NCBI GenBank assembly: GCA_003134855.1
Contig: PLCS01000009.1
Location: 257,911 to 321,910 of the forward strand
Length of the DNA: 64,000 nucleotides
Direction of reading: 5' to 3'
DNA from: Acidobacteriaceae bacterium
GTDB taxonomy: Bacteria > Acidobacteriota > Terriglobia > Terriglobales > Acidobacteriaceae
Under the pieces are notes generated by a model. It saw nothing but the letters and a program-made list of their open reading frames with translations. It did no database searches and was not told the origin of the DNA. The position numbers were made by a program, and so were the translations under genes. Below, one piece after another: positions 26,048 to 57,794 of this stretch. The stretch's first letter is position 1. Each line of letters begins with the position of its first letter.

Positions 26048-27172
26048 ATGCTGATCGAAGGCATCTTTGCCGCGGTTCCCACGCCGTTTTACCCGGACGA
26101 GCGCGTCTATTATCGCAAGCTCGAAGCCAACATTGTGCATTATTCGCGCACGCTGCTCTCCGGAGTGCTGCTGTTAGGCTCCACGGGCGAGGCTGTGATG
26201 CTCGACGACAGCGAGAGCCGCGAGGTGCTGCGCGTAGCTGCCGAGGCCGCCGCGCCGGAGAAGGTGCTCATCGCCGGCGTGGCGCGCGAGAGCGTGAAGG
26301 CCACGGTCGCATTGGCCGAGGCGGCGGCCCAGTTCCGCTACGACGCCGTGCTAGTGCGCACGCCGACTTACTACGCCAGCCAGATGAGCGTGGCGGCCGT
26401 GCTGCACTACTTCCGCAGCGTGGCAGACCGCTCGCCGCTGCCGGTTCTGATCTACAACATTCCCCAGTGCGCGCCTTATAACATCCCCGTTGAGCTGGTG
26501 GCCGAACTTGCGCAGCACCCCAACATCATCGGCATCAAGGATTCCAGCGGCAGCGTGGAGCGGATACGCGCGTTGGTTGAAGGAGTGAAAAACGCGCCCT
26601 GGAGAACGGTGACTGTGACGCCGATCTTCGAGGCGGTCACCGGACGGATGCTGACGGCTCAGGCGGGGAGTGAAGAGGCGCTGGTTTCCATCGGCGGCGT
26701 TGTTGATTTGGATGGAAAACAAAGTGGGATGGAATCCCACCCTAGCGACTTCGCTCAGGGCAGGCTTCGCGACAAAAACAAGAACGACGCGAGGGTGGGG
26801 CACTCGGTGACTCTGAAGACGCGGACCAAGGAAGTCGGCTTTCCCGTGCTCTGCGGCTCGACGGCCACGCTGCTTGGCTCTCTTGAGGCAGGCGCCGCTG
26901 GGGGCATCACAGCCTTCGCCTCGTGCGCGCCGCAGGCCTGCCAGGAGGTCTATCTTGCCTGGAAGGATCGTGACTTCAAGCTGGCCGCGGAGAAGCAGCA
27001 GCGCATCGCCGCCGCCAGCCAGCGCATCGTTGGCCAGTTGGGCATGAGCGGCGTCAAGTATGCCTGCGACTTCAACGGTTACTACGGAGGCCACACCCGC
27101 GCGCCGCTGTTGCCCGTCACCGGGGCCGTAAAGGCGGAAATTGAGGCGCTGCTGGCCGGGATTCGCAATTAA
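26048..27172 (+). CDS. Dihydrodipicolinate synthase/N-acetylneuraminate lyase family protein
   Basis: GVLLLGSTGEAVMLDDSES; VRTPTYYA; PVLIYNIPQ; IIGIKDSSG; about 30-aa apparent insertion at ESHPSDFAQGRLRDKNKNDARVGH. Confidence 0.85.
   Translation: MLIEGIFAAVPTPFYPDERVYYRKLEANIVHYSRTLLSGVLLLGSTGEAVMLDDSESREVLRVAAEAAAPEKVLIAGVARESVKATVALAEAAAQFRYDAVLVRTPTYYASQMSVAAVLHYFRSVADRSPLPVLIYNIPQCAPYNIPVELVAELAQHPNIIGIKDSSGSVERIRALVEGVKNAPWRTVTVTPIFEAVTGRMLTAQAGSEEALVSIGGVVDLDGKQSGMESHPSDFAQGRLRDKNKNDARVGHSVTLKTRTKEVGFPVLCGSTATLLGSLEAGAAGGITAFASCAPQACQEVYLAWKDRDFKLAAEKQQRIAAASQRIVGQLGMSGVKYACDFNGYYGGHTRAPLLPVTGAVKAEIEALLAGIRN
26724..26803 (+). repeat. Palindromic repeat element inserted in frame in the dapA-family gene
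   Basis: gtgggatggaatcccaccctagcgacttcgctcagggcaggcttcgcgacaaaaacaagaacgacgcgagggtggggcac; ccaccct..agggtgg dyad; tcgctcagggcaggct resembles intergenic tttgctcaaggcaggct at about 31.1 kb. Confidence 0.65.
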
Positions 27173-30779: not shown

Positions 30780-31093
30780 GAGGCCTCCATGCGCCGGTTA
30801 TGCATTGTTACTGCCGTACTGAACCGCATATCGGATGTTTCCCAGCTATCAACATCGAGGTCGGGCCGCCTACGTCTCACATATTGATACTTTCCGGTTT
30901 GGGTGGTCTTCCGAAAGTATTGATTTCAGGGTGGTTAAAATAATCTGCAAGGTATCGAAAATATAGAAGGGGGTAGGGGGTGCCTCAGAAAACAGGGGTC
31001 AGGGATCAGGGGCCAGTAACTGCCCGCGCCTCTGGTTGTGATTCATTCTTATATTGTGTGCGCCGGGAGGGAAATCAACTGCAAACCGCCTTT

Positions 31094-31232
31094 CGGCTTT
31101 GCTCAAGGCAGGCTCTGCGGTGGGATCAATGGCTCGCTTGCCGCTCGCATTGAGTTCGTGGTTTCCCAGGTCTCAAAATCGAGACCTGGGGCACCCAGAT
31201 TTCACCTACCCCGGACCTGCGCCACCCGCCAG
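31094..31232 (+). repeat. Dispersed palindromic composite repeat, family A copy 2
   Basis: tttgctcaaggcaggctctgcggtgggatcaatggctcgcttgccgctcgcattgagttcgtggtttcccaggtctcaaaatcgagacctggggcacccagatttc...gcgccacccgcc. Confidence 0.75.
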
Positions 31233-31270
31233 CGGTCGAGATCGAGTCGGAATGGATGGTAAGGCCCCGC

Positions 31271-31356
31271 GGCCCACTCATCATAAAGCCGCGATGAATG
31301 GGGCACAGCCCCGCAACCCCAAGGTGCATATTCAAAAGCAATAGGTGGGCCACCTG
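31271..31356 (+). repeat. Dispersed repeat, family B copy 1
   Basis: cccactcatcataaagccgcgatgaatggggcacagccccgcaaccccaaggtgcatattcaaaagcaataggtgggccacctgcc. Confidence 0.75.
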
Positions 31357-57745: not shown

Positions 57746-57782
57746 TCCCACCCTTTCGCACAGAACACGAAAGGATGGGGCA
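57746..57782. repeat. Intergenic inverted repeat CCACCCTTTCG..CGAAAGGATGGGG, related in form to the dapA insertion
   Basis: cccaccctttcgcacagaacacgaaaggatggggcac. Confidence 0.6.
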
Positions 57783-57794
57783 CGGAGTTACTTT

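Follow-up and report, generated by a model that had tools for sequence, protein, structure and literature searches.

A REP-like palindrome read in frame within an aldolase-type gene of an acidobacterium

We analysed a stretch of 64,000 nucleotides (the window) from the genome of a soil acidobacterium and found that its DHDPS/4-hydroxy-2-oxoglutarate-aldolase-like gene (26048–27172, + strand) contains a composite palindromic repeat of 69 bp (26735–26803, + strand), read in frame as residues 230–252 (SHPSDFAQGRLRDKNKNDARVGH). We consider it very probable (about 0.88) that a REP inserted here after the lineage had split from its sister species, and that the 69 bp, open in frame, are coded as 23 tolerated residues. 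An earlier note on this DNA had described an in-frame palindromic repeat in this dapA-family gene; this was borne out, with the unit now refined to 26735–26803 and resolved as composite. Its suggestion that a mobile repeat had turned coding while keeping the frame is supported by the multicopy nature of the element and by the lack of the segment in the orthologues.

The composite insert and its host gene

The segment DLDGKQSGMESHPSDFAQGRLRDKNKNDARVGHSV lies in frame within the ORF of 374 residues (Pfam DHDPS, 8.1e-44). The insert begins with the 15-bp left arm of a class A REP (TCCCACCCTAGCGAC, 26735–26749, + strand), part of an inverted repeat and the same as the left arm of the intergenic copy L151. 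This is followed by 24 bp of foreign sequence (TTCGCTCAGGGCAGGCTTCGCGAC, 26750–26773, + strand), which belong to a second dispersed repeat family, are not found in other class A copies and finish with a repeat of GCGAC. The remaining 30 bp comprise the class A loop and right arm (AAAAACAAGAACGACGCGAGGGTGGGGCAC, 26774–26803, + strand), with up to 94% identity to approximately 38 other copies in the genome. With the nested 24 bp taken out, what remains is an ordinary 45-bp repeat of the kind seen in L151 (TCCCACCCTAGCGACAAAGACAAGAACGTCGCGAGGGTGGGGCAC). By blastn, window positions 26746–26766 show a 21-bp exact match to G000:C8:449397–449417.

The arms of the insert, CCCACCCT (26736–26743) and AGGGTGGG (26792–26799), extend to a 12-nt pair that is 92% complementary and separated by 40 nt. 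As single-stranded DNA, the window copy folds only modestly better than shuffled sequences (z = -1.7), and its hairpin is degraded. Its GTGG is found at 26724–26727, seven bases before T26735, outside the canonical spacing; the canonical GTGG was probably lost from this copy or not carried along. A short additional dyad (GTGGGA-TGGAA-TCCCAC, 26724–26740) overlaps the insert on its left side, and GGATGGAA occurs as a direct repeat at 26710 and 26727.

Comparison with orthologues indicates when the segment was gained. The segment is absent from every orthologue aligned (52 contig loci and 29 same-genus loci, in overlapping sets), including the nearest, from the sister genome G009 (L015), in which the flanks are 95% and 93% identical and the insert is missing. 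Most orthologues are 351 residues in length, and the 23 extra codons here correspond to the 69-bp element. The linker of orthologue L016 reads SASQLAGGVTLAAAPP followed by VATLKVRTK (16 + 9 residues) and that of the window protein SIGGVVDLDGKQSGME, 23 residues and SVTLKTRTK (16 + 23 + 9), thus the net gain equals the length of the element. The G009 orthologue has 345 residues, having lost 6 codons at the linker site, and because it is shorter there the exact empty site was deduced. No target duplication is visible at this site or at that of a second copy, in comEC, although both empty sites have diverged, so this is weak evidence. Insertion of the HUH type (IS200/IS605-type) would leave no target duplication. 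Taken together, the alignments point to a lineage-specific insertion confined to one species.

The closest PDB relative of the 374-residue protein, in both sequence and fold, is human 4-hydroxy-2-oxoglutarate aldolase (HOGA1, 3s5o). In the AlphaFold model, the barrel is mostly predicted with pLDDT above 90, and residues 191–257, which include the insert, fall below 50. The insert peptide is therefore placed by the model in a low-confidence linker, predicted to be disordered, of an otherwise confident TIM barrel, in line with the surface loop that the earlier note had proposed to look for. This linker is a lineage-specific extension, variable in all orthologues aligned, whereas the human enzyme passes straight from the helix to KTRKQDFQVLAGS.

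Repeat families and RAYT transposases

The host genome (Acidobacteriaceae, Terracidiphilus-like; 3.94 Mb in 17 contigs) is rich in related elements. A blastn search of the insert against its own genome returned 40 places (best after the window itself, 1.2e-8), and the right arm, AGGGTGGGGCAC, occurs 155 times with up to one mismatch, compared to 12 for a reversed control. We built a class A covariance model from 30 copies, excluding that of the window, and scored 150 candidates; the class A/B family has at least 146 copies at E ≤ 0.01, among them the window copy (3.3e-7). Each of the 36 same-genus genomes examined contains members of the family, the number of matches at E ≤ 1e-5 ranging from 1 to 137. 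The repeat has no match in Rfam, and the class A consensus none in the plasmid collection.

Class A has a 45-bp palindromic consensus, TCCCACCCTAGCCGCAAAAACAAGAACGCGGCGAGGGTGGGGCAC, with a long hairpin loop of approximately 12 nt. Class B copies are mostly 36–42 bp and end in AGGATGGGGCAC. The REP core spans 36–45 bp, its stem shows compensatory changes in three pairs, and composites of 84–86 bp with a second inner hairpin also occur. The dyad at 57746 that the earlier note had related to the insert is an intergenic class B relative of 38 bp (TCCCACCCTTTCGCACAGAACACGAAAGGATGGGGCAC, 57746–57783, + strand). The note had also matched the inner part of the insert to intergenic sequence at 31.1 kb. 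This match is real (CTTTGCTCAAGGCAGGCT, 31097–31114, + strand, two mismatches), but it belongs to a different repeat family, that of the nested 24 bp. Copies of this second family are seen as CTTCGACTTCGCTCAGGGCAGGCT, and its core, at up to two mismatches, has 11 genome copies, compared to none for the reversed control.

In the family consensus, TTCGTGGTnTCCCA, GTGG lies two bases 5' of the hairpin, which fits the rule that REPs carry a GTAG or GTGG tetranucleotide 0–2 nt 5' of the hairpin (PMC6006769). RAYT-type Y1 transposase genes lie between inverted class B REPs in two genomes of the genus (G010, L397; G016, L398) and between class-A-like hairpins in a third (G028, L408), and many other RAYT genes are bracketed by hairpins with a TCCC...GGGGCAC foot. 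Since the same hairpins bracket RAYT genes in the genus, we assign the repeats to a REP/RAYT system. The host genome has an intact RAYT gene (L012/L412) bracketed by class D hairpins; no RAYT gene with class A or B hairpins on both sides was seen there. The same class D hairpin occurs in the window as a REP (TCCCAGGTCTCAAAATCGAGACCTGGGGCAC, 31164–31194, + strand) whose foot sequence is that of classes A and B. Adjoining it, positions 31235–31297 read VEIESEWMVRPRGPLIIKPR-stop, near the C-terminus of the L010 and L394 RAYT proteins, and look like a RAYT gene remnant. Elsewhere in the genus, the coding sequence of a RAYT gene (G012, L391/L415) overlaps at its 3' end with a class-A-like REP, which is read as part of the C-terminus, and at least six near-identical REPs (TCCCGCCCTTGCGA...) form a regular array with a spacing of approximately 88 bp downstream of another RAYT gene (G007, L400).

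We propose that the REP, a short DNA hairpin, would be mobilised by a RAYT transposase, and we infer that a RAYT carried out the class A insertion, into the part of the DHDPS-family aldolase gene that encodes the variable and disordered linker joining helix 6 to strand 7. The insertion would date from after the split from the sister species, and the 45-bp element would have been enlarged by 24 bp of the second repeat either before or after the move. Because 69 bp is a multiple of three and the frame is open, the insert would add 23 hydrophilic residues to the protein, and the gene would survive.

In-frame copies in other genes and alternative readings

We mapped 145 copies, taken from searches and the sequence surrounding their hits, and counted as intragenic those with an open frame and coding-like codon use on both sides, followed by domain and orthologue checks. 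This left 11 copies, all in frame, spread over ten genes; the mapped copies are mostly extragenic. At 88% coding, a typical value that we assumed, approximately 128 of the 145 would be expected in genes, thus gene copies are strongly depleted. Class A copies are coding in the dapA-type window gene, dus (L113), an ABC-F-type ATPase gene (L150) and comEC (L162, as SHLSHKNKDVAKVGH), in each case in the frame SHPS..KN.DAARVGHP. Class B copies are coding in gcvPB (glycine dehydrogenase subunit 2, L254), rlmN (L271), ileS (L293), an AMP-binding/acyl-carrier/acyltransferase fusion (L130, two copies), a UvrD/RecB-type helicase-nuclease (L251) and a protein without a Pfam match (L297), the insert of which is common to G009. 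Some of these genes are probably essential. The seven class B copies within genes all belong to a 41-bp subtype that makes up 25 of the 145 in the census; perhaps this length suits the reading frame together with the flanks. Other candidates were rejected. Long stop-to-stop ORFs cross repeats at L160, L117, L144 and L108, for example, but the repeat precedes the domain and is probably upstream of the real start, and three loci flagged by codon score (L289, L288 and L304) were near-terminal and without support.

The same loops have been filled repeatedly. The ileS loop of the sister G009 reads EYVALQAGDEVYIV without an insert, that of this genome holds a class D element and then a class B element, and in G003 this place is taken by two class D-like peptides. 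The gcvPB loop holds class B in this genome versus class D (CAPGLDSETWES) in G026. In dus, the class A insert is common to this genome and G009, while in other species SGIRDQGSGVRDQ-type tandem repeats occupy the site. The loop is full of tandem SGIRDQ/GSGVRDQ-type repeats in the dus orthologues L194, L196 and L181; these correspond to an intergenic GGGATCAGGGATCAG-like repeat that is also found near window positions 30996–31017. The mutS gene of G022 (L199:969–3932) has a class A copy, SHASGKNEDAARMGHP, in frame before the VCALALLDLSTGEF strand; it came to light when the Dus protein was used as the query and is thus uninformative on frame preference.

Could the palindrome instead be a dyad that arose by chance in an ordinary linker of variable sequence? 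The variability of the linker in all orthologues and the modest folding score of the window copy would suit this reading, yet it is refuted by the blastn and covariance model searches, which show the element to be multicopy and not single-copy, and it sits badly with the low counts of the reversed-pattern controls and with a length gain that matches the element; we give it almost no credence. A conserved protein feature was rejected, as the segment is in none of the aligned orthologues. Insertions into genes are usually damaging, and the insert might mark a decaying pseudogene. This is very improbable given an intact frame of 374 codons and the retention of the residues at the expected catalytic Tyr and Schiff-base Lys positions of the DHDPS-type family (Y136 and K164, invariant across 32 orthologues), together with a pairwise dN/dS against the sister of 0.09 for the part upstream of the insert and 0.14 for the part downstream. 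At a dN/dS of approximately 0.1, purifying selection acts on the host gene. The gene still looks functional from its sequence, and the protein is presumably made and active.

A further reading grants the insert a function, with the extra hydrophilic loop selected for interaction, regulation or solubility beyond mere tolerance. The four class A coding copies share a single frame out of four that are usually open (p = 1/64 under equal use), and it is the most hydrophilic of these. An antisense APSFPR.SAERVG frame is common to five of the seven class B coding copies. These frame-sharing figures come from a small number of cases and were not fixed beforehand. The dus insert has also been kept open in both this genome and G009. 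However, its REP part is less constrained (dN/dS of approximately 0.55, from three changes) than the gene fragment (0.065), and the dapA insert is limited to one species, in a linker that varies throughout; selection for the loop is thus improbable. The AlphaFold model of Dus is poor (mean pLDDT of 62) and does not enter into the argument. We favor a tolerated REP insertion in the dapA-type gene, which is likely close to neutral. Going beyond this gene, the REP/RAYT system of the genus and other dispersed repeats might together keep supplying core enzymes with new disordered loops, as different repeats fill the IleRS, GcvPB, RlmN and Dus loops across sister species. The repeats would have settled into forms with protein-tolerated hydrophilic frames, and a function may have been gained by some of the loops. 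We offer this wider view tentatively and consider it rather doubtful as a whole.

Comparison with known systems

The repeats resemble known REP/RAYT systems in being short multicopy palindromes, mostly intergenic, with GTGG 5' of the hairpin foot and bracketing RAYT genes, and in that part of the copies lie in frame within genes, repair genes among them (Di Nocera 2013, PMC3733652; PMC6006769). They differ in the class A loop of approximately 12 nt, in the filling of the same protein loops by several repeat classes and in the nesting of the window copy with another repeat. Intragenic REPs were described in several genera, with repair genes noted, and for Acidobacteria the same study reported only TIRYT genes with other inverted repeats (Di Nocera 2013, PMC3733652). 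In-frame REPs inside RAYT genes have also been reported, and flexible-loop insertions referred to (PMC6006769). The family and phylum are not among the REP/RAYT cases that we found described in the literature, and our open-access search returned no report of in-frame palindromes for this genus, which is not proof of absence.

In-frame palindromes have been described from Rickettsia (Ogata 2000 and 2002, both cited in a passage of PMC10969869), the genus in which protein-coding palindromes were first recognised as a recurrent feature. The analogy drawn by the earlier note to these Rickettsia palindromic elements (RPEs) holds for behavior, namely palindromic repeats in frame inside unrelated genes (ten here) at places that the protein tolerates. 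RPEs, however, are approximately 150 bp (same passage of PMC10969869) and from Rickettsia, whereas the elements here are 36–45 bp, RAYT-linked and in an acidobacterium. Thus, the elements behave like RPEs but look like RAYT-linked REPs and not relatives of RPEs. The enterobacterial RU repeats (PMC2759123) are also small, mobile, intragenic and able to supply coding sequence, but are longer (103–168 bp) and described as MITE-like. The phenomenon has been described before, in Rickettsia and some other bacteria; what is new is a well-populated acidobacterial case that offers unusually good material for comparison. With more than 100 copies per genome, clear before-and-after orthologues and an identifiable transposase, a genus other than Rickettsia now allows comparative and laboratory tests of how proteins come to take in mobile repeats and which of their loops can accommodate them.
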